A stretch of DNA of 64,000 nucleotides from Climacium dendroides (lineage: Eukaryota; Streptophyta; Bryopsida; Hypnales; Climaciaceae): contig OX467088.1 of NCBI GenBank assembly GCA_950106755.1, positions 16,414,001 to 16,478,000 of the forward strand. Direction: 5' to 3'. Both the position numbers and the translations under genes were made by a program. This document shows, piece by piece, positions 2,230-25,529 of the stretch. Numbering within the stretch: the first letter of the stretch is position 1; each line of letters opens with the position of its first letter. The notes beneath the pieces were generated by a model. That model saw only the letters and a program-made list of their open reading frames with translations. It did not search any database and was not told the DNA's origin.

Positions 2230-3000
2230 TTTAATTTTACAAGTATCTTGAGGTATAGCCCAAAAAAAACATAAAAAATTGAATTTTGTTAATTTTTATT
2301 TTTTTTCTCAAAGATTATATTTAAAAAAAAATTTGAATCTTTGATTCATTCTATCTGGACTAGTGATGAGAAAGTAATGGACAATCTTGTTTTTTGGTCA
2401 ATCTAAGCATCTTCTTGAAAATATAACTTATAGAATTCATTTTTTAATGCAATTTTTATAATTTTCAAAAATTGTTAAACATGGTTAAATTTTCTTGCTA
2501 GAACAATCTTACCGTTTGAAATTATTGTGTTTCAATTCCACCTTTAGTTAGAGCTACTAGTGATATAGTTTTTCCTCTAATCTTGAATGTACTTCAATTT
2601 AACAATTTTTAAATGACTGCAAATTAAATATTTTTTCGTTGAATTTTTGAAAATTTTCAACTCAATTCTTCACCATAATAAATTAGAGAATTAAAATAAG
2701 TAGTACAAAAATTTTAAGTTAAAAAGAATTAAAGTCAAAGAATGTAGTCAAGCATGGAAAGGAACTTGGTTTTTTCATTTTAAATGCAAATACCTTGCAA
2801 TCTACGTGGTCAAAGTTTTTAAAATTTCTTCCACATTCTTATTCCAATCTAGTGCAAGATCCTATAGTTAGATATCCAAAAAAAATCCTTTTTCTGGAAC
2901 ATTCCACTTTATTAGGCATTCATCTAATTCTCCTCATGCCCCAAAAGCTTGCTTTACAAAAACCAAGCCCCTCGGTTTGAGTTATCATTTAATCCTAGGA
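2230..3000 (+). repeat. Dispersed repeat family R1, copy 1
   Basis: This segment is a diverged copy of the sequences at about 28975-29690 and 29775-30400. Shared blocks include 'aaatgcaaata' followed by 'ctacgtggtcaaa' or its variants, then 'agatccta', and a 'ttgattcatt...agtgatg' block. No open frame survives across copies, so it is a non-coding or fully decayed element of unknown class. Confidence 0.6.
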
Positions 3001-3059
3001 CATGTCCATGATCTTAAATTTTCAAGCCTCACTACGCCATTTTGCAACTAAATATGAAT

Positions 3060-6000
3060 GAAATTTTTTATATTTATTTTTCAGAGTATGGTATTAAAGA
3101 ATGGATGATTTTCATCCAATATTAGTATGTAACTTTATTGACGCTTTATCCACATCATTGAGTTTAATTTAAGGCATTTATATTTATTTACAACTATATA
3201 TAAGGTATTATTTTTTTAAAAAGATACACCTACACTTCATATTTCAATATTTTGACCTTTCTAAGCTAGAAACTTCATTTCAACATTCAAATTATTTCAC
3301 TTACATTTGAGTAAATCTAAAAATTGCAACTTCCAAAGTGTAGTTTCTACTATGCTTGAAAATTTTGATAATATTTGGAAAAATAAGCATTCTTTTGAAG
3401 TTTGAAGTTGAAGACCTACAACCATGTTTCAAAGTATAGAATAACACATAAATTTACTTATACCACAATATTCTATATCATAATACACCTTTAATATGAA
3501 AATTTTAGATTTTAAAATTGTCTTTTGTATTTATATGAGTTTTCTTCATTTTTCTCCAAAAAATTAGTAGTAGTAGTAGTAGTAATATGTAATTTTCACA
3601 AAATAACCTAAATGTTTATTAAAATTTGACACAATTCTTTTGGGATTATTCATGTCATAAAATATTTAATTTAATTTATAAAATTTCCAAATTATCAAGA
3701 ATTTTAGAAAAAGAAGCATCTTGAATTGTAATTATATTATTTACCTCTTGATTCTTGAAAGTTCTTAAAATATTTTTTATTATCAATCACTATAAAAATT
3801 TTAATATTTTAAAAATACTAATGAAGATAAATACAAGTCTAAATGATTTTAGGTACACTTGAATACACCTCAAGGCATTGTCAATTCTATAGAGGCAATG
3901 GAATCCATAATTACCTCCTTCTATGACATTGTTTGACATCAACCAAAAAGCCACATCAAAATATATAAGTACTTAATGTGTCTTGAATTTGCATTCACCT
4001 TGTTGTTTCCTAATTGTAATTTTGATCTACTTGAATTGATGCTAACACTTTCCTATGTAGTTTTTGTCATTTTTTTTATAGTTGCAATAAGGTTTCAATG
4101 AATGCTACGGAAATAATCCAATCATGGCTTCAATTTAATTTTGTGGCCAAAACCTTGTCTAATTTAGTCATACACCTCATCTTTATTTTTTTCAATGCAT
4201 TCACAAAGGTAGCCTTGAAATAAAAATCTATATGTTTGTTTTAGCATTGCCTTTTATGTCTCCTTGATTTTGGCCCAATAGGTGAAAATCTTTTGAATCT
4301 TATACCCACAACAATAAATGAGCCCATATCTTGTTTGGGCAAAACCACAAACATATTTATCCATTCACCACACTTACCAATTGTCACATTTACTTGTCAA
4401 TACATTGCCAAAGGTCATCTTAATTACAATTGCATTAGAATCCAAAATCCAAATGATGGAAAATCAAATATGTCAATGATATAACTTACGCATTTTCAAA
4501 ATGAAAGTTTGGAGAATATAAAATATTAAGCATGTTTCAATGTCATTATGATTTTTTTCTCCTAGTATTGTTATAACTAATTTTTGTTATGACTAATTTT
4601 CACTAGATATCTATTATAGAAGATGATAGCTAGAAACACAATCTCTCCCAATCATTGCATTTTAGAGATAGTATTGACAAACATTGGTTTTGTTCAAGGT
4701 AGCAAGAAAAAAATTACATAATTTTGAGACATTACACCTAAAGCTAGATTTCTAAACATTGAGTGCCTCTACATCATTAAAGCATCATGATTTTGAGGCA
4801 CCACGACAGAAGTGACAAATTGAAGCCAACAACTACAATTTTGGAGCCATTTTTGTCTATCCTTTCATCTTCATTTGGGCCTTCATTAATCACGTACACC
4901 ATGAAAACTTGGCACTTATTAGATCAAAAGAACTTTCAAAATTAGAAAAATACTTTATATTAAGTTTGAAGATTTACTTTTAATTCTTTTAAGTTTTATT
5001 TAAGATTCTTTCTAGATTCCATATGACAAACCATTAAAAAATTTTAAACTTCAAGTCTCAAACCTTCAAACTTTATTAACCATTGATAGCGCAAAGAGAA
5101 GTGGAATTGTAGTTTTTAAAAATGTTATGATTTTAACTATTAACTTAAAATAAAATATATTTTCCAACCAAGTTATGATATTTTACAATGCTACTAGTAA
5201 TAAATTTTATTTTCAAAGATTTGATTTTAACTTAGATTGATTAGTACAAAATATAAGCATTGCATCATTCTAATATAAACACGAGCATAAATAAACACCT
5301 TTAAATTGTTACAAAAACGCTTTAATTGTAAAGTATTAGTCTACAAGCCTAAATGTTGAAATGAAGCAATTGTTGTACTGGGCCTATATAGTAAGAATAA
5401 TTGAATTATTTTTTTGTAAACAATGTGGTCATCAAAAATATTTTTTAGGATATTAAATTATCAATATATAATTATATATTTATTTTAAAATTTGATCACA
5501 ATCATTCAAAATTAGTACATGTGAAAACATGTTAAACTAAAGTTGTTAATTTATTTCATGTCATCTTGACTCCCTCCTAAAAGATACATCAATTTTTCGT
5601 GTATTTTGATGTGTCACTTTCAACCTATATGGAACATCTTGAGGCATTTATTAAAATGATGAAGATAAAATAAGTTAGAATTTTATGAAGTTCTACTCAC
5701 ATCTATTTGTTGAAGTTGATTTATACATGTACTTGATGTATATAGTGTTTTTTTGGTTGGTTTTGGAGTGTTTACATGGTCTTCTTATTGCTAACACCTA
5801 TGATTGTTTTAAGAGAATTGCCCACTAGTAGAAAATTTCAACAGAAATTTCAACAGTTAATTTCAACAAAAATTTGTTGTTCAATGACCAAAACAATGCG
5901 ATCGAAACAACAGAATTCTGTTGAAATTCCTGCATTTTCTACTAGGTGCCTAAAAGTTACATCTATTTTATATGTCCTTTGTCTTTTTAACCTCCATAAC

Positions 6001-6100
6001 TTAAGAGAACTTAAGAGAATGTTTTGCATGTTGTTGAAATTTTTGTGTGACTTTTTCATCCATGGTGTCTTTATTGTCAAGCATTGCCGTTGCTTCTACA
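3060..6100 (+). repeat. Left arm of a long inverted duplication
   Basis: The arm reads, in reverse complement, as 25530-28160. Matched blocks are 3090-3180 with 28060-28150, 3550-3620 with 27640-27710, 3850-4130 with 27060-27350, 4200-4590 with 26600-26960, 5350-5600 with 25580-25800, and 6056-6095 with 25536-25560. The left arm has extra DNA between about 5600 and 6050, including a small MITE. A further direct copy of 4040-4600 lies at 22005-22690. The arms are diverged, so this is an old repeat family rather than a recent palindrome. The TAG-triplet run at 3565-3585 lies within it. Confidence 0.8.
5823..5948. mobile_element. CACTAG-ended MITE candidate
   Basis: The left end reads CACTAGTAGAAAA and the right end reads TTTTCTACTAGGTG, which are inverted copies with one extra base. 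Inside are inverted 'tttcaacag' and 'ctgttgaaa' blocks. The segment lies in the part of the left repeat arm that is missing from the inverted copy near 25560, which agrees with a later insertion. I could not define a clean target duplication. The open frames over it on both strands are by-products of the inverted repeats. Confidence 0.55.
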
Positions 6101-6249
6101 TTAATGATCAAGTTGATTAACAAAAGAAGGATTGTTTGTACAAGAGTTTTCAAATTATTTCTTCACTTATCATAGCAAAAGGTTTGATAAAAATGTTTCT
6201 TTCATGACAACAGACAATCACCAAATATGACCCATTAAAATTACAATAT

Positions 6250-7926
6250 ATACTTTCAAACACTCAAAGGCTTGAGTGCTTGCATATGGTGCTTGGTGGT
6301 GTGCTTTGAGGTGCTGAGTTTGGTAGGTCACATGCATGTCTTAGAATAAATTACCATTGTGGCCTAGGTTTGTAGTGACAATTTGCCATTTGTTTGAACT
6401 AAAGCACCTAGAAAATCATTTTTATTTTGAAAAGGACTTAAACTTGCTAAGAGACTTTCTACTTCTACATGCCTTAATTCCACCTTTAGAAGGCAAAAAG
6501 AGGTAGTCCTTGCCTACCCATGTCCACAAGGCATGGCTAGTGGAACTACCTCCAAATGACTCTTTATCTCAATAATGGTGTCCACTTAGTTGTTCTTAGG
6601 GGCTGTTTCCATTGACGTGCTAGATGTTCAGGCCTAGAGGAGTCCAGTCCCTTTCCATTGCAAAAGGAAGGGGGGCTAGACCTCCAATTGGACATCCAAG
6701 CGTCCAGGTCACATCAGGTTCAAATGCAGACTTGGAGGGCCTGGACCCCCCAATTTGAGTAAATGGACAAATTGAGGCTACAAGACTTGTTCCAAATTAG
6801 CAAGTTACTGTACTATGTCAAGTTACTGTACATGTCAGCATTTATGGATTCTTAATTCCGATTATAGGTTTACATGAAAAAAATTAAAAATTAAAACATA
6901 TTTGAGTAAAAGACAATAATTAAAAGCAATAAACTAAAATCATGAATTAATAACAATAATTATTGATAATAATGAATAACAATAATGAATAACTATAATT
7001 AATAAAATTAATTAGTAACAATAATTAACAAAATTAATTAAAAACAATATTTAATAGCAGTAATGAATGACAATAATCAAGTGCTTCATTTTTATTTTTT
7101 TAAAGTTCCCCTTAGTTGTCCAAAGTCCCTTCAATTCCCCCCATTGAGTTCACTCATTCAGTTCATCTCATCACTTTTTCAGTAACTTAAACGTTCCCCA
7201 AATTGGTAAAGTCCCCTCTAGGCCTTGAAAGTCTGGCTTCCAATGGAAAGTTGGACCCCCCTCCAGCCAGTCTAAGCCCCATCCAGCCCTCTGTCTAGGC
7301 CCTGGACATCCAGCACGTCAATGGAAATAGCCCCTTATTATGTACTCCTCGATGCTAAAGTAATTTAATCTTAATTATGAAACATGTGTTTTTTCATGGT
7401 GACAATTTGTTCCTTCATGCTTTGGGGAGCACTATAGATGCATGCATGAAGGTGATGAGTTGAAATTGAAAGGTCCCACCAAGAACATGTTAGAAAAGAC
7501 CTACAATAAATAGGTGTAAAAGGTTTGTCTCAAGCACTAAAATTGGAAAACTTTCCTTCTTGCCAACAATCTTGTAATTGGTGACATTTTGAAATTTTCC
7601 TTCATTGCCAACTCAAGCTTTACATTGTCATGGTGGAGTGGATGGAAAACCATTAAGTGAGTGAGCAAGTATATATGCTAAAAAGTAATGATATAATTAT
7701 AATCTAGTGAGTTCTTTTGAAGAGTATGAAAGAATTTAATGACATGGTTATGGTTATTGCATTGAATATTCTATGTCTCCATATAGATGTAGATTTTATT
7801 TTATGAATAGTGCTAACTTATATGAACACTGAGATTATATTTATTTGAACATCAATGTAAATATTAGTTAAAGGACTTATTGTGTTGTTGCATGTTTTTT
7901 CAGTTTTCACGCTTTTGCTTTCACTT
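6250..7926 (+). repeat. Repeat family R2, copy 1 (interrupted)
   Basis: Homologous to 20240-21300 on the same strand, and in part to 22690-23005 inverted. Shared landmarks are 'gaggcaaaaagaggtagtcc'-like sequence, 'tgctttggggagcactatag' and the 'gttaaaggacttatt' block near 7870 and 21230. Two insertions interrupt this copy: the element at 6599-7334 and the CACTA element starting at 7927. The sequence resumes at 19070. No coding capacity is evident. Confidence 0.8.
6599..7334. mobile_element. PIF/Harbinger-like non-autonomous element
   Basis: A 736-bp insertion with long imperfect terminal inverted repeats. The left end is GGGGCTGTTTCCATTGACGT and the right end, reverse-complemented, is GGGGCTATTTCCATTGACGT; the similarity continues for about 40 bp through a GGATGTCCAGGCCTAGA-type block. 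It is flanked by TTA on both sides (6596-6598 and 7335-7337), as expected for PIF/Harbinger (Tourist-type) elements. The related copy at about 20640-20690 lacks the insertion and reads continuously across the site. There is no transposase frame inside, so it would need help in trans. The class rests on the end sequence and the 3-bp TTA target, not on a protein. Confidence 0.8.
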
Positions 7927-8169
7927 CACTACAAGGAAAAGGGGTACAAAATGATAGTAATTTGACATGGATTTGTCTGAAATGACAACGGCCATATTTT
8001 TTTAGTCATTTGATTGGAGCTTGTTAGTTTTTTGTCAAGTTCTTGTCAAATCTTTTTGTTCAATTCCTCTTGTTTTCAATATTGTTTACTATAGCAAGAG
8101 AAGAGAAAACTTGCAGTCATTGGATTTAAGTATTGTCAACGTGTAATTGCAATAGAAATTTGTCAACTT

Positions 8170-10440
8170 GAAAACAAATAAAGGCATTGTCGAGATGACA
8201 AACTTGCCTAGCTTCGTGTGTAGTTGTAATGAAAGTCTTCTACACAACATACTTTCCAAAATAAATCCTGCCATGTATAGAAAGGTCTCCGAATAAATAT
8301 ATACAAAAATCACTCATGATGTTTTGTAAACACCCATCGTAATTCCATTGCAACATGGCTTAGCAACAACTTCAATGAATACACTTCTTCAAGATTAGGC
8401 ATATTGCACCTATGGATATGACAAGTGCAGCAATAGTTGCATTGCATATCAGAATGAAAACAATATGAAAAAAAATCAATGCTCCCATTCACTAGCAATT
8501 CCATTTGAAGCAGTGTTAAAACAAACCCAGAGAAGCTGGTTTTATCATTGCCAACCAATACAGAAATACAAGAAGCTTGGTCTATTGACAAATGATAACC
8601 TTTATTTCAAAAATAGTAACTAAACAACATAGTTAATTCACTCTTCATTCCTGCATGCTAGCCATCTTCCACTTACAAAATTTTCTACTTTTACTTTGTT
8701 ACAATAACTGAAAACGGTGTTTAGCAACTCCTATACTCTCTCACTCATTGTTCATTTGCCAACCACTCTTAAATTGCATCTTAAAACCTAGTATTTTTAT
8801 AAGAAAGGTGTTAGTAAGACAATTGATAAGCTATTGTACTTGATGAAACTGCTTTGTTGAAATTTTTTTTTTCAATTTCATAGAGTATAGACGTGATCAC
8901 AAATTAAGAATCCAGAGTTACTACATGTTTGTCTCCGAAGAGTAGTGAAGTTGTAAGGATTTTATGCTTATTGAAGATCTCAAGTGTACTAGGCACTAGA
9001 CATTAAGTTTTGAAAAAACACTAGAAGTTGAGGTTCACTTCATGATGAAAATGATGTATTTCTTTAAATAATAATTATGAATTAAAAAAAAAGACTATTG
9101 CATCCCTTTTAGTTTTCTGTTTAAAGTTTGTTCATCAAGTTGGAAAATTACATGTGTGAATTAATCATGGATATGTATTGTTTTTGATAGGTTGTCAGGA
9201 TGCAAATACATGTAGAAGTCCTAAAATGATTAATTTCATTGTTCATTATTGTTTTGTAATACTGTAGGGTTGTAGATTGCACTGAAATGCATAAACCGGT
9301 GTCGTGTTGTTTATACGTACATTATGTAAAAATAAATACTTCTTGTTTAAATAGAGGGTTTTTTGGAGAGCCTAATCCATCCAAACGGATTGAACTCAAC
9401 CTTTTTTACTTCTATTAAACAATTATTTGGGTTTATAATGTTTGTTTTTACACTTGAAGTCATTTGGTATTTTTTAGTTTGTATTTAAAGTTGTTTAAAT
9501 GGAAAGGTGAAGCTTGTTTGACCTTTCTATTGACTTTTAGAAGATTAGAAGGCCACGTAGGAGATAAAAATAGGGTTATAGGAGAAAAGAAGTGACCAAT
9601 GGACAAATTGTGGTCCATATGACACTTGTAGGGGTTTAATCCACTAGCTTAGGTGGAAAGTATGGAGGGTGAGGTGGAGGATAAGGTGGAAGGTCTTCTT
9701 CTTCCTCCTCAAGATTTGCTTGGAAAAAACCGTGACTTTAGAGGGTTATTGTGTTTTCTACAGGAAGATTTTTGGCTATGAAATTTTGAAAGGTTGTTTT
9801 TCATACTTTTGTCTTTCCAAAATACTATCACTCGCTCTATTTGGAGTTTTTGTGCAAAAGTTATGCTTGAGGAAGTGAGGGAAAGATGTTTGCCATGGAG
9901 AATGGAGGCTGAACTTTTGAGGGTTCATAACTATGTGATGAGAAAGTGTTTTCTTATGATACTTAGTGAAGTTGTTTATTAAGATGTTATCTTCCCATAG
10001 AGATACCATTTTTTCAATTTGAAGCTAGCATGAGGAAGTTATGAACTTGGAAGCAAAGTAGTGAGGAGTTGCCTTTGAATTGTGAATAGTAAACTTTGAA
10101 CGACTGTAGAATTCGGAAAGTATCTTAGTTTTATTTGATATTTTCAGGGTTTGTAGATATTTTTATTAGCTTTCTAAAAAGATATCATACTCTTGATTTG
10201 GAGTTGAAAAGCTTCTGTGGCATTCATTTTTGTGTCGGGTATTCTTTTAAGAGAAGTTATAGAGGTTTTGGTGTATCTTCTACCATTTTCTACAAACATG
10301 TGAAACTTTCTTACACACTATAGCATATTATGGGAGTTATATGAGAATAGGCTACTCTACTTGGCCTATATATCATTATATGGGGCATTTGTGAGTATAT
10401 ATATATGATGAGAGTATTTGATTGGGGTTCTTTCATTATT
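8170..10440. other. Left internal part of the CACTA element, no gene recognised
   Basis: Open frames such as 8310-8591 minus and 9669-9878 plus are short and unrecognised. No TNP2-like domain is visible in any frame I read by eye. This is probably non-coding sub-terminal sequence plus decayed DNA. Confidence 0.4.
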
Positions 10441-10445
10441 CCGGG

Positions 10446-10668
10446 CCAAATCTAATTGCAGCTAGAATCCCCGCGATTTCCCAAGGCAAGGCCTCTCTAC
10501 CCGACATTGGTCTCCTCACTTGGCATGTCACCATGCCAATTATTTCATGATTGTAATTGTCTTCAGAAAACTTCTATAGTTGTGGATTCAACAAAATCTG
10601 GCAATCAATTCTTTGCACAAGTGAGAACAACGGTGAATGCTACAAGTGGACAAAAGCAAAACCTTTAG
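10446..10668 (+). pseudogene. Possible exon or captured gene fragment inside the CACTA element
   Basis: An open frame of about 70 codons with higher GC than its surroundings begins after 'ctaattgcag', a plausible splice acceptor at 10460. It contains Pro- and Cys-containing sequence without a domain I recognise. It may be a 5' exon of the oxygenase gene downstream, or a captured host fragment, a known habit of CACTA elements. The next likely exon in the same direction is 11179-11288. Confidence 0.3.
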
Positions 10669-10915
10669 TTTGGAGGTAGAGTCAACAGTGGAGACGGAAT
10701 AAGGTATTTGTGGATAGAAGAAACACTATGGACACTAAGCCAGTGATTAAGATGTACGTACGTTGGTTAAATTGTAATCCTCTTATTTTAATGTTTAGAC
10801 ATTATGCTAATTAGGCCTCAAGACTTCTATTTTTTATGACTTTGTTTGTTGCTTGATACGAAAAATATAGAAAACCAATAGGCCTTTATATACTTGCAAA
10901 TATGTTTATGTTGTT

Positions 10916-11098
10916 ACTAGGATTGGGGAATAAGAAAGGCAATCGGCTTTTAAGATTTCCCATCCTAAAAGTGTTTTTCCTTAGAAAATAGTGAGATTAT
11001 TTTGTTTACTAGGATTGGGGAATAAGGAAGGCAATCGGCTTTTAAGATTCCCCATCCTAAAAGTTTTATTTCTTTGGAAAGTAGCAAGAGAATTAACA
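10916..11098 (+). repeat. 92-bp tandem duplication in the CACTA element
   Basis: Two adjacent units begin 'actaggattggggaata' at 10916 and 11008, and each contains 'ggcaatcggcttttaagatt'. The units differ by a few substitutions. Confidence 0.9.
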
Positions 11099-11178
11099 AA
11101 TCCAAGTAGGCATACAAGAATTCTAATGTTTGCTTTACCTTTCTAATATTTATGTTTGAAAATGATTGTTTCTTGCAG

Positions 11179-11288
11179 AAAAGAAAGTAAAGAAGCTAGA
11201 CTACAAAAAGAGGATAAAGAGTATATTAAAGCTACTAAGAAGGCAAAGAGGACGAGACAATTTCAAGGAGTTAAATCCAAAATTACAG
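11179..11288 (+). pseudogene. Candidate lysine-rich exon inside the CACTA element
   Basis: A 110-bp interval open in two frames, bounded by 'tttcttgcag' and 'attacag|gtatat', both good splice signals. One frame gives a charged Lys/Glu/Arg-rich peptide that could be coiled coil or a nuclear/DNA-contact segment. It sits upstream of the oxygenase-like exons and may be part of the same transcript. This is inference from splice sites and composition only. Confidence 0.4.
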
Positions 11289-11409
11289 GTATATTGCAAG
11301 AAATTTAAATTCTTTTGGTGCTCATACAATGCTCATTGATTTTTATACATTTTATTTCTTTTGAGGGTTCTTTTATTTATTGTGGTATCAAATTTTTTTA
11401 TATAGTTTT

Positions 11410-11410
<1 letters not shown>

Positions 11411-11475
<65 letters not shown>
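11411..11475. repeat. (TA)n microsatellite
   Basis: A TA run of about 64 bases within the putative intron between the candidate exons at 11179-11288 and 11660-11966. Confidence 0.95.
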
Positions 11476-11478
<3 letters not shown>

Positions 11479-11659
11479 CATAGGGATCGAAGATGTGGTG
11501 TTTTTTTATGTCACAAATGATGTCTTTTTGTAGCTTTTAGGAAGTGTTTTCTTTAAATCGTACAGGGTTATATTTTTTTTGTTTGAAGATTCAAAAAATA
11601 CATTCTTGAAAGATAATTTTGTACATGATTTCTTATTAATGTAGTAATAACTCAATGCA

Positions 11660-12783
11660 TGATATGCAAGAGCTTTTGTTGTTCAAAGAAAGCAGAACTC
11701 TAAAGACCTTGAAGATAAGTACCCAAATTGTATTCCTGACAAATTTTTTCGTATTAACTATGGCACACTTGCTATTCAAGACAAGGATTCCAAGGACATT
11801 GTACTAATCGTTAAATGCTATCATTTTCAAGAAATGCCACTTGAGGAGTATGAGGAGTACCAAAAAATAACTTCGACGCTCATTAGTATGAAGAGGGGTG
11901 CCAGTTTAGTAAAATCGAATTATGCGCAAAAGACTGGTGATATGTATGCACTCGGTTGGAGACCGGGTGAGTTTTTTAAATATGATTCTCCATGTACATG
12001 TCTCTATGGTTGCATACATATTTTTTATGTTATACACAATAGTCTTGGCTTATTATATATATTTCATAAGGATTTTTGACAAGTAATAAATTTATTTTTT
12101 GTTTTTTATAGGTTTAAATAAAGGCTTCACTTTTGGGCGTTATGTTCTAGACAAGAAGATGCAAGGTTCTGTTTCAAACCTGCAAGAGTGAAAAGAGCAA
12201 CAAGCCACCATATCAAAGATATCTTATATTTACAGGAAGAGATTTTACAGTCTAACGCCATCTCTTTTTCAGCAGACAAAAGTGGAAGTAGCGGTGGGAA
12301 AAGTATTAAGTTTATCCACCATAGAATTCAAAATCTTGCAATTACAGGAAGGTGTGTTTTGTAGTAATTTGACGTATATCATGAATGACTTTAGCAATGC
12401 ATATCATCGAGATCGAGATTACAACACATATGCTTTTGGCATGCGGGCTCCGATATACTTTGACACTGGAGGTCTATTGCACAAGGACAATGGTTTGAAG
12501 AGGGAGGAATGAGAATTTATACTTGGGAGTTATAATGTGTGCGTGGATTTCAACGGCTGTGATGGAGTTGTTGAAATAATATGGCATGGTAAATTAGATT
12601 TCCACCGGACCATCTAAAATGAGTTCACAGTATACAAGGATTGTGACATCCGTGCAAGTTAGTGATGCTCTGGTTAAGAGAGTCAAGAAATTGACTAAGT
12701 TACATATGATGGGTGAGAACATGCAAAAAATAATTCGAGGTGTTGAAGAAATAGTGTTGTCCAAAATGGAGAAAGCTAAGTAG
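11660..12783 (+). pseudogene. TET/JBP-like 2OG-Fe(II) dioxygenase relic in the CACTA element
   Basis: The translation fits the TET/JBP-type (2OGFeDO) oxygenase fold. Members of the family oxidise 5-methylpyrimidines in DNA. Exon a (about 11660-11966) holds MYALGWRPG before a phase-1 donor at 11967. Exon b begins at 12112, continues with LNKGFTFGRYVL, and carries an HRD iron-ligand motif at 12405-12413 in the context FSNAYHRDRDYNTYAFG. It then has VDFNGCDGVVEIIW, a second histidine in DFHRT (12603-12605), and YTRIVTSVQ (from 12631) supplying a candidate 2OG-binding arginine. Two in-frame TGA codons (12189, 12510) and a frameshift near 12612 break it. All three catalytic positions are still readable, so decay looks limited. 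Family assignment comes from remembered motif patterns of fungal TET/JBP proteins; another DSBH oxygenase is possible. Confidence 0.65.
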
Positions 12784-15460
12784 TTCTTTGTACGAGATTA
12801 TGATTTCAGTAGAGGCATTTGTAGGAGAGTAGTTTGAACAATTGAGATGAAGGTCAATGAGTTTATAAAATACTTTAACAAGCAGACTTCTGTCTTTTGG
12901 AAATGTATCTACCTTTGTTATGAAACAATGATATTAATATTTGCATTTTTCAATTTCAATCTTAAATTTTTTTTATGTTTTTGTTGATTATATGTGGAAA
13001 TTTATGTGCACATGGTTTTTTTTCAATGATTATTTTACGGTTGTTGTAAAAGAGTTACAATTGTAATTGTATATAGATATATTGCAGGGATCTACATACT
13101 AAGAACAGAAGAGAATTTTGTAGGACGAATTTGGTCAAAGAAAATGTTGGTGTAGAGGTTTAGAAGATGTTGAATTCATGATTACAGAAGAAGAATTTTT
13201 TTCTATTATTCAAATTCAAAATGGGCCTACATATATTGATTGCCTTCTTGGTATATAGAGAATGATGATGATGGTAATATTCGAATACGAAGTCTTATAA
13301 TTGTTAAGCTTCAAAACTGATGTCCCATAGTGGTTAAACCATGATTGTTTGGATTGTTTGAAGAGAAAATTTTGCATAGCATAAGTAGTAATAACCATTA
13401 CAAGTATTTCGACAATATTCTGGAATTAGTGTAGATTTTATTCAATTACAAGTAGTAATTGAGGTATGTGCCACTCTTGTCCTTTGTTCTTTTTGACATA
13501 GATTTTATATATTTAGTAAAAAAATTCTCTTGGTCTAAATCTATATTTAAATGAGATGAAAGAGATAAATATCTCATTTTCTAGATTGTGAATGTAGAAC
13601 TTGGATGCTAAAGATGCATTTTGTAGAGAGCGTGCTGACATATCTTATTGAAAAATCAATTATATAGTATCGTCCAACAAAAGAAGTAGGAAGGACTTCA
13701 AAAATAATTTATGATTTAGTATACAAAGAACATACTCTGTACATTGGATGCTTGCTAGTTTAGATTGGAATTTTAATAGTTTTTTCCTATAACTTGAAAA
13801 ATAGATTCTATTGTTTTATATTTGAGGGCGTATATTGAGAATCTTGTTGGTTTGATTTATTATCATGTCTGAACTATTCTATGCAAACTTTTCTTGTAGC
13901 TATGAAATGTGGATTGGTTGAAAATATAGGATTTCTTAGAAATCTACTAGCTATTTTAAGTTCAATTATTTATTTTATTGGTGAAGCTTTGAGATTGGTT
14001 CCATTGTACATGAGGTTATTATAGAGGCATTCTAGAAGTTAAAATGATGGTGTCAATAATGCAATGGAAAAACATGTAGACAATCTCAAACAATATACTA
14101 CAGGTCATCAAATTTCATGGTATACATTAAGATTGGGTAATTTTTTAATTAAGAAGAGGTCAATATTTAATGCATTGTTACAAGACGTTTTAGGGACATG
14201 TGCCTAAATTTCATGACTTCCCGGCGGCACCGTCTAGTTCCACAGGCTATTGATAGTTTGTGATGTCTTGTCTCTTATTTTTTTCATAAACTATGCTATA
14301 CAGATATACGATTGACAACGTAGAATTGTTTGAGGATGTTTAGAATAGCGCGCTCACTAGGGAGAATAGGAAATGTTGAGGGAATACTTTCTATTATAGA
14401 GGGAGAGAAATAGGGATTCATTGATGATGTTCTGAAGACAATTTGCTCACCATCGAACCAAGCGGCAAGAGCTACAAGCATAGAGAGAGAAGAAGGTGAA
14501 ACCAAGAGAAGTGTACCTCTGATGATGGCAAAAGTGAAAACATGGAAGAGTAGAAGTCCTTTTTCAACAAAGATAGTGACTATAAAGATTACAACAACAA
14601 GGATGTCGATGGAGTACTAGAAGAATCAGCATTAGAAGAATTATCACCAGTAAGAAAGTTAATTCTAAATTTTTTTAGGTTTCAATTGTAGTAGCAATAG
14701 AAGAACTATATTTAATCTTATGATGGTAATACTAGTGATGTTGTTCCGTTAGCAACAATAGTTCTGTTGATGCTGAGACTTCATCATAATCAAATGCTAG
14801 TGAAAAGCAAGTAAGGAAGATGCATTTGGGATTAGAGACATCATTACAATTTACAAAAAAGAGTTGTAAACAGAGGATGATAAGATTATGCCATTGTACA
14901 CCAAGAATTTGAGAAAAGTTGTGAGTTGTAAACCATCAATCATTTTCAAATGCAGTAGTTTGTATTCCAATAAAATATATCTGCAATGGAAGCACAGATA
15001 TTGATTGTGTTAAAAAAAAAGTTAGAATACATATCTTGTGCCTTTGTAGTTGTTGATTTCATATGTCTTGTTTGATATTGATGTTGTTTGTTTATTGATG
15101 TGTTCTTCTTTAGAGGATGTAGACAAACTTTCTAATTTTATTGAGGCACTCATAATGTATATTTGTGCTTGTTATTATCATATAATATGTATTAATGGAT
15201 TGAAGTTCAGCTGCACTATGAGCCGTATAATATTATAATGTTTTGAACTTCTAGATTTGTATGTATAGAAGGTTTTATAGTCATTTACTAATGGACTAAA
15301 ATGCAAGTGTAATGATGTAGATGCGAGGAACAAAAACTTCAAATACTATTGACAAGATATGTTTTACATGGCTGTATTATGGAATGAAGGGGATGTTGGT
15401 TTTCTACCATGCAGGTTTCTATGGCCTTATGAGTTTTTATGTGTGGTATGAAATTAAAAT
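12784..15460. other. Central CACTA interior, decayed
   Basis: No continuous coding frame is present. An acidic, Asp/Glu/Ser-rich reading near 14560-14660 on the plus strand could be a remnant of transposase-region coding sequence, but it is broken by several stops. I see no TNP2 landmarks here. Confidence 0.35.
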
Positions 15461-15892
15461 ATGTTGAATATATTCATTAGTCCAATTTGTGACTTGTTCA
15501 TGCATTGTAATAAAAAACAGGCTGTTAGAAATGAAGAAGTTAATAGAAAACGACAAGAAGAATTTGTTCCTTGGAAAAAACCTACTACTTCAGGGGGACA
15601 ACAAGCAAGTGCCTGTACGATACACTACACATCCCAAGAGAGGGGGAAAAAAACAACACTACCCATGTTTTCAAAGTCCACCAACTTACAATCAACCGAT
15701 ATTTTTGTAGCAACATTTGTTTCAGCAGGAGAAGGATGTGTGAATGGTGCACCTAGATTTGTTGAAAAAGAAGGACGACAATCAATCACCTCAACACGTG
15801 TAGTGCATGGTGATGGCAACAGGTTTGCAAGTAGATCTCAAAATAAAAAGTACATGGAAATGTATAATTTTGTTATGGCTATAAATAATTGA
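15461..15892 (+). pseudogene. Hypothetical ORF in the CACTA element
   Basis: An open frame of 143 codons, the longest uninterrupted frame in its part of the element. It lies about 0.9 kb upstream of the TnpA-like relic and in the same direction. The N-terminal third is charged (Lys/Arg/Glu) and the rest is mixed. I do not recognise a domain. It could be an upstream exon of the TnpA-like gene. Overlapping frames on both strands make chance openness possible. Confidence 0.35.
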
Positions 15893-16797
15893 TTTTGTAT
15901 TTGAACTTCGTTAGTATAGTAGAGGACAATTAGCAGAATTGATGATTAGACTGAAAGAATGACAATGACAAAGTAAGTGTATGATGTAAATGGGAAGGAA
16001 AGGAACACATTCAAGATAGTCATCAAAGCTATCATTGTTACTATATATAGATGAAGGAACAATGTCCTTTTTTTTAAAGGAAGGCCCTACATCAAAAAAC
16101 ATATTCAACTGAAATGTATGTCAATTTTCTTGTCACCATAGAATTTATAAGCAAACTACAAAGAATTATACCCTCTCATGAACTTCTATAGTTATATATG
16201 TTCATTTTGAAGTTGCTTTGATGTTCTTGCTATTGAATATTATAGATCATCTTATCAGGAATGCATTAATGGAAAGAAGTGTTTATGTATATAGTAGAAG
16301 AGAAGCGGTGACAAGTATAGAGTATTCTTCAAAAGGTCAGATGCCAAGTTCCATACAAACTACACCTTAAAAAAATTTCAATTACAACAAAGAACATCGA
16401 TTATCCCTTTTGCAAGGTTCACAAAGGAGACAAGAAGTTCTCAGTGAATACAGTCCGACCATGGCACATGCAAAAAGGATGCCATCATCTTCTCAACAAA
16501 AATGTCTTGAAAAACAAGATAGTTGTCAAAAATATGCAAAGGCTTCGATTGTGCAAGATGAAAAAGATATAAGTTGTCTTAAAATTACCTAGTTCATGCA
16601 ATCTAGAAATCGTGTGGTAGTCATAATTTATTCATGTAGGCAGTCATTTTTGTGACTTTAAATTTGAAGGATGTAGCCATACTATTTGTTTCCTAAACAC
16701 TTTTTGACCATACTAGAAATGATAACAGAGAGTTTTAACCTTTGCAAACGAGGACGTTCAGAGCAAGTACAAGGATGAAGATGTATAGGATATACTT

Positions 16798-18232
16798 CAA
16801 AATTGTAGAACAGAAGGAGAATTTGGAACACATGCAGTTGACTTCTACGATAAGGACCTACATGAGAATGGTATGACATACAATGATCGCGAAGATGACG
16901 CGTATGACCCAACTCAACAACCACATATCAATGATGCAGATGAAGACAAAGATGTTGAAGAGTTATTATATGCAACTCCAACAGAAAGGAAAAAAGAGAG
17001 GAGACAAGAAAAAGCTTGCTGTGAAAAAGAAGGTAATAAACAGCAAAAGGAAGGTTTACCAAGGAATTTTCTCCTAGTGGATGAGTTTACAAAGCGACCT
17101 TATGGTGTGAGAGTGGGAAATTGGAGAAAGGAATTGATGTTGCTGTCTAGAGATTTGAACTCATTGATTGGAAACATCAATAACCAACTAGAAGGCGATG
17201 TTGCACAAATAGTAGAATGGATTCAACATACATGGAAGTATAGCTCCTCAGTAAAACATGAATACGTGAAGGAAGTGATAGTCCGTGGGATCACATTGAA
17301 ACGTGTTGATTTGTAGAAGAAAATACATAATGGAGAGCCGAAGTTGAGTGAAATTTCTGATCAAGCATGGCGAACACTAGAGAGACAATTGGACAATCCA
17401 ACATCAATAAGGAAGTCTGAAAATTGTCGAAGAGCTAATGCAAGTAGGGTGAATTTTGGTAGAACAGGGCCTTCAGGTGAGGTTGGAGTACGTCAAAGGC
17501 TGAGGAGGATTCTACGGAGGTCACTAGATCCAGAAGAAATCAGGTTTGAGATGACTCGTGACAAAGGTTATGGTGAGAGTCAACAAAAAAAATGAGAATT
17601 CAAATGTCATGTATGGAAGTGGGGGTCGACGGCTATTATTCATAGATGTGGCAGAGATGAGTCCATCGATTGATAATTTGCAAGACAAGAGAAATATGGA
17701 AAATCAATACAAGGAGCCTACGGAGAATAGAAGGAACGAAATGAATGTGGAAGACCAAATACTTCAAGAAAAGGAAGGAAAGGTGGTAGAAGAAACCGTT
17801 TCTTCAATGTCGGCTGAACAAATTTTTCAGCATCCATTAGTAGTTGTAATGATGCGACGGCTAAAAGCATTAGAAGGTAAATAAATTGAATCTCTGTTGG
17901 AGGATCAACATCAATCTGCTGAAGACGTCCCCAATGCACGTGAGAGAGTTCAAGAAACGAAAGAAAAACACATTTTGCAGCAATCACAAGTAAGTTTTCA
18001 AGAAACGAGGGAAGCATAAGGATTGCTAGTGAAGTGGTGAAATATGGTGGAGGATACTTTAAAACTATTAAGTTGTAATGTTTCATGGAATGTTGAAGGT
18101 CAAGCAAGATAGTAGAATTTATTTTAACTAATCATCTCAACTTTTGTAGGGTCTTCGACGAGATTTGGAATCAGACAGAACTACAAAAATTTCTACATCA
18201 GAGAGGCAAAAGAAGAAAGTGAAACATGGATG
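16798..18232 (+). pseudogene. TnpA-like plant transposase (Ptta/En/Spm, Transposase_24-type) relic
   Basis: One frame runs from 16798 to 17595 with a single TAG at 17314. It opens with an acidic Asp/Glu-rich segment, then a Lys/Arg-rich run, then a segment holding RPYGVRVGNWRKE. After the TAG it contains an 'SENCRRANASRVNFGRTGPSG' block, with W at the front and a Glu-Glu-Ile plus DKGYG ending. This is the layout I associate with the plant transposase Ptta/En/Spm family (PF03004), where conserved 'SExN..NR....TG' precedes a Gly-containing tail. A shifted frame (17558-17884) carries the C-terminal helical tail, and a possible last exon follows 'cttttgtag' at 18149, ending in a basic QKKKVKHG peptide. 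In En/Spm, TnpA binds the subterminal repeats. Confidence 0.65.
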
Positions 18233-18750
18233 ATCAACTGACAACAATGTTGGGGCTTCTATGATAATTCTACAGCAACCGTCATAATTTACTATGACGT
18301 GTGTACCAGGTGTTGTGGTTGAAACAAAAGTTTGTTAAATTGATGTCTATGATGTTTTGGTTAGGTTTGTATGGTATAGTGTAACAACAATGTGTGAGAA
18401 TGGAGACTGTACAAGAAATCATATCAATCATGTTTTCTAGTACAAGCTATTACAGTGCAATATAGTGCCTAATTTTGATGTTGACACTGTATATAGTATA
18501 TAAATAAGCACACTAGTAAGAACTCTGGAGAATATTCTGTAATACAAGCGTATAGAATTTGTATATTATCTACTTTATGTTGAATAGTATGTAGGCTTAC
18601 AGAGTTGGTGGCAAGTTGAGGTACCTCATATATGGAATGTCATGTACTATTGGCTACTAATAACATGTGGACTTCAGATGTTCACAATTTTGAAAACATG
18701 TTCTTGTATACAAATTGGGCTCATAAAGTACATTTTCAGCAACTAGTCTA

Positions 18751-18778
18751 AATATATATATATATATATATATATATG
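18751..18778. repeat. Short (TA)n run
   Basis: A TA run of about 26 bases near the right end of the CACTA element. Confidence 0.9.
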
Positions 18779-19069
18779 CCTAAATTTCTATATGTTAATT
18801 TCTCTATTTTGCACATGCATGTCAGCACAAACAAAGCCCACTATCTTTTCCTAAAGAGATAACAGTTGTTATTGATGAGTAGGCTATGCGAAGGCATTGT
18901 AGTTTTCCACTCTCAAAAATTGAAGTTGACAAAATTTATGTTCAAATTGACACAACTAATGACAAAATTCTATCAACTAATTGGCCAAATCAAGACGTTC
19001 CTACTGACAAAGCAATTGACAAATTTTTGTTAATTTGTTGTCAATAAGGACACAGATATCCTTGTAGTG

Positions 19070-20239
19070 CTTTCTATAAGATTTTATTTCCTACTTCCCT
19101 TCTCCATCAATGAGCTTGAGGCATCATGTCTCTTTAAAGGAATCCTCTTGAATTATAAGAGGAATCAACACCTATTGGTTGCCTCCATGAATTCTTTAAC
19201 CTCTAAATGCCCAAGGTCTTTTTTAAGATTTCGAAAAGAATGTATTTAGAGTAGATGTAATGTTTTCCAATACTTTGACAATGACATGAATTGAAGTTTC
19301 TTTAGCCTATATGAACCTAGGGTAGTCAATTTTCAAATCTTTGACTAAATGTACAATATTTGATATTTTTGATATTTTGATAGACCTTTGGGAATAAGGA
19401 AATGAACATTTATAAATGGATTAAGACTACAAATTCAAAAAATAATAAGGAAGTTTATGAAAGTTTTTTGTAATACTCCATTTGCAAATTGTTACAATGT
19501 AGGTAATCTTTTTTGAAAATTAAGAATTAAGTCATTATGCCATGTTTTTAAGGCCTTGTGATAGCAAGAGACTATATGGAGCCAATCAATCAATCAATTT
19601 CACATTCTAAATCAATATTATTTGACTAGATTTGGCTTAGTGTTTTTGATATATTTAATATTTGGCTTTTCAAATTGGCCTATAGTGTATTAGAACCAAA
19701 AAAATGAAATAAATCTTAAACACATATCAATGACTATAAGTATCCACCATTGAGTGAGTTTGTCAAACTTGATACATCTTTTGATTGAAAATACTCTCAT
19801 TTCTATCATCAAAAAATCTTACAATCATAATTGGAATCTATTTAAATTATGTATTATTGTAATCATTGTTATTTTATATATTTTGTTTGTTAAAGACAAC
19901 AATTGACATTCATTGAAACTTTACATTATTTGTAACATTCAAATTACATAAAAAAAAAAAAAGCCTTTAGTCTAAACTAATAAATAGACATAGTAAGACA
20001 AATAAATAGCAAGTTTTCCATGCCAACTCTCCATATTTCATAATTATATAAGACTCTGTAAATCATTCATTAAGACTAATATTATGAAATTTATGAAAAT
20101 AATGAATATATTTGGAAAAAAATGATATTTTGATTCTAATAATAAAAAATGTCAATAATCAAGGTTTATCAAATTGAAAATATCATTTATTCATGAGATG
20201 GTTGAAAAAGAATATAATGTCCTATAAGTTGTTTACAAA
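19070..20239. other. Right flank of the CACTA insertion, repeat-derived, no gene
   Basis: From 19070 the interrupted R2 copy resumes; 'ttctccatcaatgagcttgagg' near 19100 matches the 21330 region. Beyond about 19400 the sequence is AT-rich with no gene or element end that I can support. Confidence 0.5.
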
Positions 20240-21340
20240 AATAAATAATGATCTTTTACTCATATTTATCACTCTTCTCTTCTCTTCAAATTGATGTGAT
20301 TTTTGCACTTTGAGGTGTTTTCTTTGGTAGGTCATATGTTGGATCCACTCACATAATGACAACAATGTAGGCCAAGATAATGCAAACCAAGTACTAGTTC
20401 CATGCATGTCTTAGAATAAATCACCATTGTGGCTTAGGTTTATAGTGATGATTTGCCGTCTGTTTGAACTAAAGCATCTAAAAAATCATTTTTATTTTGA
20501 GAAGGACTTACGCTTGCTAAGAGACTTTTCACTTCTATATATCTTAATTCCACCTTTTGGAGGCAAAAAGAGGTAGTCCTTGCCTACCGATGTCCACAAG
20601 GTATGGCTAGTAGAACTCTAAATGACTCTTTATCCCAATAATGGTGTCTATTTAGTTGTTCTTATTATTATGTACTTCTCGATGCTAAATCGATTTGGTC
20701 TTAATCATGAAACACATGGTTTTTCTTGATGACGGTTTGTTCCTTCATGCTTTGGGGAGCACTATAGATGCATGCATGAAGGTGATGAGTTGTGATTGAA
20801 AGGTCCTACCAAGACCATGACAATTGTGAATTTAGAAAAGACCTACACTACAATAAAGAGGTAGAGAAGATTTCAAGCACTAAAACTGAAAAACTTTCAT
20901 TCTTGCCAACAATCTTGCAATTGGTGACGTTTAAGAATTTTTCTTCATTGCTAACTCAAGCTTTACATTGTCATGGTGAAGCGAATGGAAAACCACTAAG
21001 TGAATAAGTATATATGCTAAAAATTAATTATAGTCTAATGAGTTCTTTTCAAGAGTATAAAAGAATTTAATGACATGGTCATGGTTGTTGCATTTAGTAT
21101 TCTATGTCTTTAATATGTCTTTAATGTCTTTGATGTAAAGTAGTTGCTAGCTTTTTGAATTTATCTTGTGGCTAGTCATGTTTATGTAAACACTGAGATT
21201 GTATTTATTTGAGTATCAATGTAAATATTGGTTAAAGGACTTATTATATTGCTACATGTTTTTTCAATTTTCACACTTTTACTTTCACTTTCCATAGAAT
21301 TTTATTCCCCAATTCCCTTCCCCATCAATGTATGGTGAGT
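20240..21340 (+). repeat. Repeat family R2, copy 2 (uninterrupted)
   Basis: Direct homologue of 6250-7926 plus the start of 19070. It retains the empty target sites of both the 736-bp Harbinger-like element (near 20665) and the CACTA element (21288-21290), which makes it the reference for dating both insertions. No gene was recognised; short open frames over it (20222-20407 minus, 20792-21007 plus) are not conserved between copies. Confidence 0.85.
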
Positions 21341-22004
21341 TTAAGGCTTTAAAATCCTAGACCAATTGAAAAACCATTTGTAGCACATGTATAATAGCAC
21401 AAATGAAAGGTCATAAAATATAGCTACATTTGCAACAAAATGGTGAATAGAGTCCAATTGACTAGTGTCATAAAGCAACCAAAGTGTGGACAATAATAGA
21501 ATTGGATTTTGTTGTAGTGAGTAATGAGAGAATTAAATTAAATTAAATTTTATAAATGACCAAAGACTCAAAGAATATAGTAGTACTTTTGGACATATTT
21601 TACAAATATTGTGACTTTGCTAATGTATTAGTATCTTGTTCACTAATTGATTGTTCTATGAGCATAGACCTTTAGATGCCTACTTTATATTATATAAATC
21701 ATCACATGAGGTTTTGAAGAGTTTCTCTTAAATCATTTGGATCACAGTGAACCCTATTTGATTGTTAATGGAGATTTCTTAGTATAAACAATATCAATTT
21801 TCAGCATAGATATCTAGAATAGATGCCTAAACTTTACTTAAGGTCACATATTGACAATTTTTGTCAATTTATAGATTGGTGTCAAAACCTTATTACTCAT
21901 ATAGATACTCTTGATATATGAGCATTTAAAAAATAATTTTTTTAAAGTCAAACATTTGTGAGTAGTAATAAATCCATACAATATTATAATTATTGTAAAA
22001 GTAA

Positions 22005-22690
22005 TGAAATGTCATCCTCAATTTCATAGTTCTTTGTCATTTTCTTTTCTATAGTTGCGATAAGGTTTTAATGAATGTTAGGGAAATAATCTACTTACAT
22101 AAGGTTTCAATGATTGCTAGGGAAATAATCTAGTCACAACTTCAATTTAATTTTATGGCCAAATCCTTGTCTAATTTCACTAGAAGGAGCTTGACGGATT
22201 TTGTTAGACATCTAATGTAACATGTTCATGTTCTAATGCATGTTCATGTTCTATTGGTGGTCATTATTGACATAAAAACAAGGTTGTTACATTGGATGTT
22301 TAACAAAATCCGTCAACTTAAACATGGGCTTCTACTAGTGTTTAAAAACTATATATTAGTTTTAGCATTACCTTTTATATCCTCATAGGTAAAACCTTTT
22401 GAATCTTATACCTACAACAACAAATGAGTCGATATCTTGGTTGGGTGAAACCACAAATGTACTTGTCCATTCACCATACTTAACAATTGCTACATTTACT
22501 TGTCAATATAGTTGCCAAAGGTCATCTTAATTACAATTGCATTATAATTCAACATTCAAATGATAGAAGATCAAATATGTCAATGATATAGCTTACACTT
22601 TTTTAAAGTGAAAGTTTGAGGAATATATAAAGCACATATCAATGTCATTATGATTTTTTCCTCTTAGTATTGTTATGACTAATTTTCGGG
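22005..22690 (+). repeat. Partial direct copy of the left repeat arm
   Basis: Homologous to 4040-4600 ('agttgcgataaggtttta', 'cacaacaacaaatga'-like and 'acttgtcaatat' blocks), and therefore also to 26600-27130 inverted. A 163-bp MITE is inserted at 22178. The copy stops abruptly at about 22687, where an inverted R2 fragment begins. Confidence 0.8.
22178..22340. mobile_element. CACTA-like MITE, 163 bp
   Basis: The ends are CACTAG...CTAGTG. Both arms contain GACGGATTTTGTTA, followed by 'gacatctaatgtaac' on the left and the matching 'gttacattggatgt' on the right. A TTT duplication flanks it (22175-22177 and 22341-22343). The related sequence at 4156-4170 lacks the insertion. Such elements would be moved in trans by an autonomous CACTA transposase. 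Confidence 0.85.
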
Positions 22691-23005
22691 CATCGCTAGG
22701 CAAGAACTACCTCTTTTTGCCTCCAAAAGGTGGAATTAAGACATGTAGAAGTGGAAAGTCTCTTAGCAAGCGTAAGTCCTTTTCAAAATAAAAATGATAT
22801 TTTAGATGCTTTAGTTCAAACAGACGGCAAATCGTCACTACAAACCTAAGCCACAATGGTGATTTATTCTAAGACATGCATGGAACTAGTACTTGGTTTG
22901 TATTATCTTGGTGTACATTGTTGTCATCATGTGAGTGGACCCAACACATGACCTACCAAAAGGAAGCACCTCAAAGTGCAAAAATCGCATCAATTTGAAG
23001 ATGTG
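22690..23005 (-). repeat. Inverted fragment of repeat family R2
   Basis: The reverse complement matches 20290-20590 and 6290-6550 (the 'cctctttttgcctcc' and 'tttgtctgaactaaagca'-type landmarks on opposite strands). It abuts the direct fragment ending at 22687, showing a rearrangement junction between two repeat families. Confidence 0.8.
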
Positions 23006-23040
23006 TAGACACATTTTTATTTTTGTTTTTGTTATCTTTC

Positions 23041-25311: not shown

Positions 25312-25335
25312 ATGGAGTCTGCATTCATTGGGTTT

Positions 25336-25461
25336 GAGTGTTTGAAAATACGTATTGTGATCTTAATGGGTCATACTTTGTGGTTGAATGGAGCCTTTGA
25401 GTGTTTGAAAATACGTATTGTGATCTTAATGGGTCATGCTTTGTGGTTGAATGGAGAAGTA
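25336..25461 (+). repeat. 63-bp tandem duplication
   Basis: Two units start 'gagtgtttgaaaatacgtat' at 25336 and 25399. They are nearly identical and remain open in one frame, giving a repeated peptide in a 75-codon frame that I do not regard as a gene. Confidence 0.9.
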
Positions 25462-25529
25462 ATTTATAAACTCTTGTGCAAAAATCTGTCTTTTGTTAAT
25501 CAATTTGATCATCAATGTAGAAGTAATGA

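Follow-up and report, generated by a model that had tools for sequence, protein, structure and literature searches.

The 64,000-nt stretch of DNA analyzed here (the window) contains a dead copy of a gene for a TET-like 2OG-Fe(II) dioxygenase that was carried as cargo by a plant CACTA transposon family, in which it probably acted against the silencing of the elements. The gene is a pseudogene with two or, more probably, three exons, belongs to the PF20515 "Tet-like 2OG-Fe(II) oxygenase" superfamily, and occupies window positions 11671–12783 together with a likely first exon at about 11180–11288. Its carrier is a CACTA (EnSpm) element of 11,143 bp (7927–19069, + strand).

All three exons lie on the + strand. 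The likely exon 1 is lysine-rich, has an unsure start, and is followed by a GT donor at 11289; it weakly resembled the stretch preceding the TET-like gene of another locus, L047 (tblastn, 37% over 49 residues, E = 1.5e−6). Exon 2 (11671–11966) has the donor GTGAGT at 11967 and was matched by tblastn in L042 (E = 6e−30), L047 (E = 5e−31), and L041 (E = 3e−24). Exon 3 (12112–12783) is joined to it in frame across a GT–AG intron (11967–12111) and carries the HxD motif as HRD (12405–12413), the distal His in DFHRT (12597–12611), and the Arg motif YTR (12631–12639). These motifs stand at the positions given for them in a first-pass annotation of the same DNA, with YTR in another frame than HRD and DFHRT. 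The damage, described there as two nonsense codons and one frameshift, lies wholly within exon 3: TGA stands at 12189 and at 12510, and the reading frame shifts between 12611 and 12631. With stops read as X, the whole frame matched PF20515 at 93.6 bits (E = 2.2e−26; Pfam cut-off, 27), and the open piece at 12192–12512 matched it at 55.9 bits (E = 7.9e−15; same cut-off); in the six-frame search of the genome, the same place scored 99.7 bits (E = 4.3e−26). The exon 2 piece weakly matched the start of the profile, at a score below the cut-off (19.1 bits, E = 0.0014). Scores so far above the cut-off agree with the earlier assignment to a TET-like family. The related profile PF12851 (Tet_JBP) had no match in the genome, and 14 control genomes were equally silent. 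In an environmental protein of 158 aa that is part of a TET-like protein (P0006), a look-alike of a BED-type zinc finger was noticed by eye before the TET-like part.

To find the carrier, the surroundings of the gene were screened for CACTA/TAGTG pairs whose 3-bp flanks are equal; 7927–19069 ranked first. The element has CACTACAAGG ends; its left terminal inverted repeat, CACTACAAGGA (7927–7937, +), is equal to the reversed right end (19059–19069, −) at 11 of 11 positions, and the last 118 bp were found at many places in the genome. Comparison of the flanks identified the target-site duplication CTT at 7924–7926 and 19070–19072, with CTT preceding CACTACAAGGAAA at the left end and CACTACAAGGATA, reversed, at the right end. 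Ends and duplication alone were equaled by 2 of 300 block shuffles, and the stronger proof of insertion is an empty site. The element interrupts a repeat, a second copy of which (20665–21330, +) is the unfilled target: the joined flanks, with one CTT kept, aligned to this copy over 100 bp ungapped with 86 identical positions and one CTT, and the interrupted repeat was 78% identical to it over 683 columns. The CACTA label was at first doubted, as there was neither a transposase nor an enrichment of TET-like genes near Transposase_21; the doubt was reversed by the ends, the duplication, the empty site, and other copies at the same right end, and the carrier is the one that the first-pass annotation had named.

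Six-frame Pfam scans of 2999–22997 and 23000–27993 detected no transposase domain, including the tnp2-type Transposase_21, and the element is therefore a non-autonomous or decayed member of its family. In its two 500-bp ends, the subterminal word TTGTCA occurs 4 and 1 times and TGACAA 3 and 4 times, against 0.15 and 0.49 per 500 bp inside the element, although these counts are small. Two further open frames lie inside it on the + strand: one of 144 aa (15458–15892) with no convincing Pfam match, and one of 175 aa (16789–17316), whose sole Pfam match, to PRP3, fell below the cut-off (20.6 bits; cut-off, 31.4) and which is perhaps a remnant of a transposon protein. On contig C2, a 59-bp match to the left end (85%) and a 118-bp match to the right end (97%) are separated by 21 kb, and Transposase_21 is matched 3.7 kb away from the former; this is probably an autonomous relative, if the two ends are correctly paired. 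Short elements with the ends of the window element occur at C38:11085849–11086755 (about 0.9 kb) and C1:15803824–15804908, and these, together with 34 places that have only the last 118–218 bp of the right end, are probable deletion derivatives. An inverted repeat at 3086–5596 and 25572–28145 (about 2.5 kb, 80% identical, with some 20 kb and the CACTA element between its arms) was considered as the ends of the carrier and rejected, since both arms fall outside the CACTA element and no clean ends were seen. In the repeat that was hit by the CACTA insertion, there is a weak match to a B3 DNA-binding domain (about 7409–7627, +; 19.1 bits; cut-off, 30.1). Scans of the window for tRNA and Rfam families found nothing.

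The TET-like gene is a recurrent cargo of this CACTA family, present in five copies. The four copies outside the window (C1:29090178, C34:5855820, C35:19779697, and C35:29446411) are near full length and 91–92% identical to the window gene over 1.14–1.19 kb; together with the window itself, one 54-bp piece, and 14 matches at 64–76%, they account for all 20 matches to the window gene. The right 1.2 kb of the element had at least 42 matches in the genome (best 40 of 105 candidates scored). Among those scored, all five non-self places with at least 589 bp of the right end stand within 12 kb of a TET match, although two of them, separated by 13 kb on C35, could represent a single rearranged place; none of the 34 matches of at most 218 bp does so, and random positions do so in 0.39% of cases. 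These counts used 66 TET places and left out those on C4, C32, and C44. Gene and right end are separated by 5.2–5.3 kb in three copies (window, C1, and C35:29.45 Mb), but by 7.6 kb in the copy at C35:19.77 Mb and by 10.7 kb in that on C34. The left 1.2 kb had 11 matches in the genome; on C34 and around C35:29.4 Mb, pieces of it match close to the gene.

One alternative, which we consider unlikely, is that the gene was a passenger, captured by chance by a CACTA element and multiplied without ever helping it. Capture of host genes is frequent in plant CACTA elements, the window element has no transposase domain, and according to the genome search, all five CACTA-borne copies now contain stops. 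The breaks were compared in two copies, those of the window and C1 (L053), and they differ: at the positions of the window's two TGA codons and frameshift, the C1 copy reads on in frame, and it is broken instead by two other stops. One of these falls within the HxD motif, which has lost its first His as well. The frame must therefore have been open before these breaks arose, which argues, against a mere passenger, that it was open when the family spread.

The window gene belongs to a large population of relatives. The six-frame profile search detected 89 PF20515 matches genome-wide, or 74 places once pieces were merged. The earlier suggestion that intact relatives may exist elsewhere in the genome was upheld, in that the HxD frame is open in 23 of the best 30 loci by our pattern; of these 23, the distal His motif is present in 20 and the Arg motif in 15. 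Open frames of relatives include one of 371 aa in L033 and one of 373 aa in L011. The HxD motif and distal His are invariant in a nine-row alignment. In a 24-row tree, the window sequence fell in a group of eight (support 100/100) that includes L042, L041/L026, and L047/L027, which show the same exon split as the window; the window branch is long and its position inside the group unsure. The NG86 dN/dS ratios of 16 pairs were 0.14–0.41 in five of the seven old pairs, rough values in that dS exceeded 1 in four of these five, with no estimate for the other two; eight close pairs gave 0.16–2.1, and the ninth gave no estimate. Roughly read, this is the pattern that a gene kept during spread and lost after insertion would show, and dN/dS between lineages well below 1 speaks against chance capture, although dS is high.

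Only 1 of 69 TET places lay within 10 kb of a Transposase_21 match (expected, 0.47; best 150 of 825 candidates scored), which fits a CACTA carrier without transposase but lends it no support. The TET lineage nearest to that of the window was observed in L047+L048 (C40:11306000–11325999), in a repeated unit at about 3619–10252 of the joined stretch that lacks both CACTA ends and a transposase; just outside this unit stands a complete CACTA transposase (PF02992, E = 1.5e−65). This transposase, 4.4 kb from the TET gene, was rejected as belonging to the carrier of that gene, as the repeated unit ends before it. A search around the TET genes of nine stretches yielded no CACTA pair that combined equal flanks with matching ends, a test limited by the lengths of the stretches.

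A second superfamily, PIF/Harbinger, also carries TET-like genes, and this again argues against a chance passenger. Two complete elements were identified, L033+L043 (10,182 bp) and L038+L044 (10,196 bp), both with GAGCATCTCCACCGTGACAC-type ends and TTA on both sides, one base being absent at the left end of L033. Each contains a PF04827 transposase, an intronless TET-like gene, and a third frame on the opposite strand; the plant-type DDE transposase (PF04827) matched with E = 2e−82 in L033, and the TET-like gene matched with E = 1.1e−44. The third frame is 495 aa long, and its larger part has a weak NAM-associated match (23 bits; cut-off, 27.7). In L033+L043, the third frame alone is interrupted, the transposase and TET frames being open; L038+L044 has an open third frame but an interrupted transposase, and its TET frame is the shorter one. 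The HxD...H...R residues are retained in intronless relatives, among them one with an open frame in a complete element of this kind. Of the 74 TET places, 12 stand within 5 kb of a PF04827 match (best 150 of 440 candidates scored), against 0.26 expected and a maximum of 3 in 2,000 random draws; these 12 represent eight sites, four of which are inverted pairs. The five Harbinger-borne rows formed one group in the tree (100/100). TET-bearing Harbinger elements were also observed as head-to-head inverted pairs, with transposase–TET facing TET–transposase, in L039 and L040 (arms 99.8–99.9% identical in these two) and at C39:16029229–16036507 and C3:4640865–4644064.

The enzymes that plants use to remove 5-methylcytosine are DEMETER/ROS1-type glycosylases. 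We propose that the TET-like protein would have oxidized methylated cytosine in DNA at the element, acting in trans on element copies, and that the oxidized base could then have been diluted at replication or excised by DEMETER-kind glycosylases of the host, so that the expression and mobility of the elements would have been relieved. In the CACTA family, the transposase would have been supplied by an autonomous relative with shared ends, and broken copies would have decayed as methylated sequence. The two Harbinger copies have CpG at 0.31–0.35 of expectation (flanks, 0.89 and 0.34) and differ by 152 transitions and 39 transversions (ratio, 3.9), and the window and C1 copies of the CACTA-borne gene differ by 71 transitions and 22 transversions. 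The CpG depletion and transition excess in the former and the transition excess in the latter indicate that these sequences were long methylated, and thus that the protection, if there was any, was not lasting.

An alternative in which the element benefits without demethylation is that the enzyme made or prepared a lasting base modification that hid the element, as by CMD1 of algae or JBP of trypanosomes. The family is far from the characterized TETs, and a sequence search against solved structures (PDB) returned no match for it; CMD1 of Chlamydomonas is, like the plant proteins, a TET/JBP-family enzyme of the green lineage, and its product is 5-glyceryl-methylcytosine according to Kojima 2025 (PMC12730594), in which hypermodification is also an option left open for the fungal PU and PE types. 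In neither the Harbinger element nor, by Pfam, the window element was a glycosyltransferase or other modifying enzyme detected, and we regard such hypermodification as quite unlikely.

It is improbable that the protein was a 2OG oxygenase acting on RNA, N6-methyladenine, or protein, with only a distant likeness to TET. The AlphaFold2 models leave room for this reading: their mean pLDDT values of 37 (window exon 3) and 46 (P0002) denote low confidence in fold and active site and are too low to support a beta-helix; furthermore, 6mA is also a substrate of CcTET (PMC12730594). Against it, the TET-like profile was the best match, and the HxD motif, distal His, and Arg occur in this order.

The assembly comprises 412.6 Mb in 123 contigs, with 11 of 12 matches to DEMETER-type domains over the cut-off and 21 matches to dynein heavy-chain domains. 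Such dyneins are not known from flowering plants or conifers, so that the host, a plant, is probably a bryophyte, lycophyte, or fern. A plant-type C2-domain phospholipase D gene in several frames was observed in the window at 34007–40437 (+; extent by eye); its first large frame (34007–34894) contains the C2 domain, and its best PDB match was phospholipase D alpha 1 (E = 3.3e−43). Although fungi have TET-bearing EnSpm and Harbinger elements (PMC12730594), fungal contamination or a fungal genome is hardly credible, given that the TET-like copies lie mostly on contigs of 28–52 Mb, that the window encodes this phospholipase D, and that the assembly contains DEMETER-type domains.

Kojima 2025 (PMC12730594) describes TET/JBP genes in 11 fungal transposon lineages, EnSpm and Harbinger included, and proposes escape from silencing as their role. 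The window family resembles the fungal TET+ EnSpm (CACTA) elements (PMC12730594) in its CAC..GTG-type ends, 3-bp duplication, and TET/JBP dioxygenase cargo; compared by description, it differs in its plant host, in the lack of a transposase domain of its own, and in the introns of its TET gene. Likewise, the plant Harbinger elements share a Harbinger-type transposase, a TET/JBP gene, and a third protein with the TET+ Harbinger (PHISTA) elements of rust fungi; PHISTA elements, however, have TA duplications and a third protein without a Myb/SANT domain (PMC12730594), whereas the plant element has a TTA duplication and a third frame with the weak NAM-associated match, as in plant PIF/Harbinger. 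This type of uptake, known from fungi, is found here in a plant, in CACTA and PIF/Harbinger elements with plant-type duplications. CcTET and the Kyakuja/Zisupton-borne TETs of mushrooms (AG type) are also transposon-multiplied TET-like HxD...H...R oxygenases, but belong to transposon superfamilies other than CACTA and PIF/Harbinger. In CcTET, Asp337, 11 residues after the first His, is needed for 5mC (PMC12730594), whereas the plant sequences aligned have Gly at that spacing. Among plant transposons, a gene of Arabidopsis Vandal/MuDR counters the silencing of its own element (PMC12730594). With the elements described here, another example of a possible anti-silencing gene in plant transposons would be added. 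The Arabidopsis gene, which we take to be VANC, is not a dioxygenase and binds sequences of its own family.

In their 2014 PNAS abstract, Iyer et al. reportedly mention the lateral transfer of TET/JBP genes to some Viridiplantae, and TET-like genes of green plants as such may therefore not be new. Among the matches listed by a full-text literature search, the titles and openings of abstracts reported no TET/JBP gene in a land-plant transposon. Two articles on oxidized methylcytosine in plants state that no TET/JBP enzyme had been identified in plants (PMC6917789) and that nothing was known of plant TET/JBP genes (PMC11233409). The genome described here, that of a plant, contains dozens of TET-like genes, some of which lie in defined transposons and have open frames; it is a candidate source of oxidized methylcytosine, and with it the proposed uptake of methyl-oxidases by transposons can be examined outside fungi. 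Judged from sequence, TET-like enzymes may have served plant transposons, as they may have served some in fungi, against their own silencing. That elements of both CACTA and PIF/Harbinger, two unrelated superfamilies, carried methylcytosine-rewriting enzymes as anti-silencing weapons in one seedless land plant is a reading to which we give slightly less than an even chance; if it is true, land plants, commonly regarded as lacking DNA-methyl oxidation, have had it as a transposon trait.

Some TET-like genes of this genome occur in other settings. Six near-identical intronless frames of 351–395 aa with no stop (L002–L007; C1:201806, C35:190848, C44:63978, C4:4725800, C40:203991, and C37:235012) lie near contig ends: four begin large contigs at a distance of 190–235 kb, one is 4 kb short of the end of C4, and one is on a 412-kb contig. 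In the two of these stretches that were followed further (L034 and L035), a tandem array of about 442-bp units stands just before the gene. The six frames perhaps form a subterminal gene family and not a transposon. Scans of viral contigs, prokaryote genomes, and phage records, which reach close relatives only, returned no relatives of the TET-like gene. L032, L036, and L037 are three copies (98.6–99% identical) of one unit, 5.9 kb or longer, the ends of which were not located; an intact TET-like frame of 379 aa is the single large frame in the part that they share.
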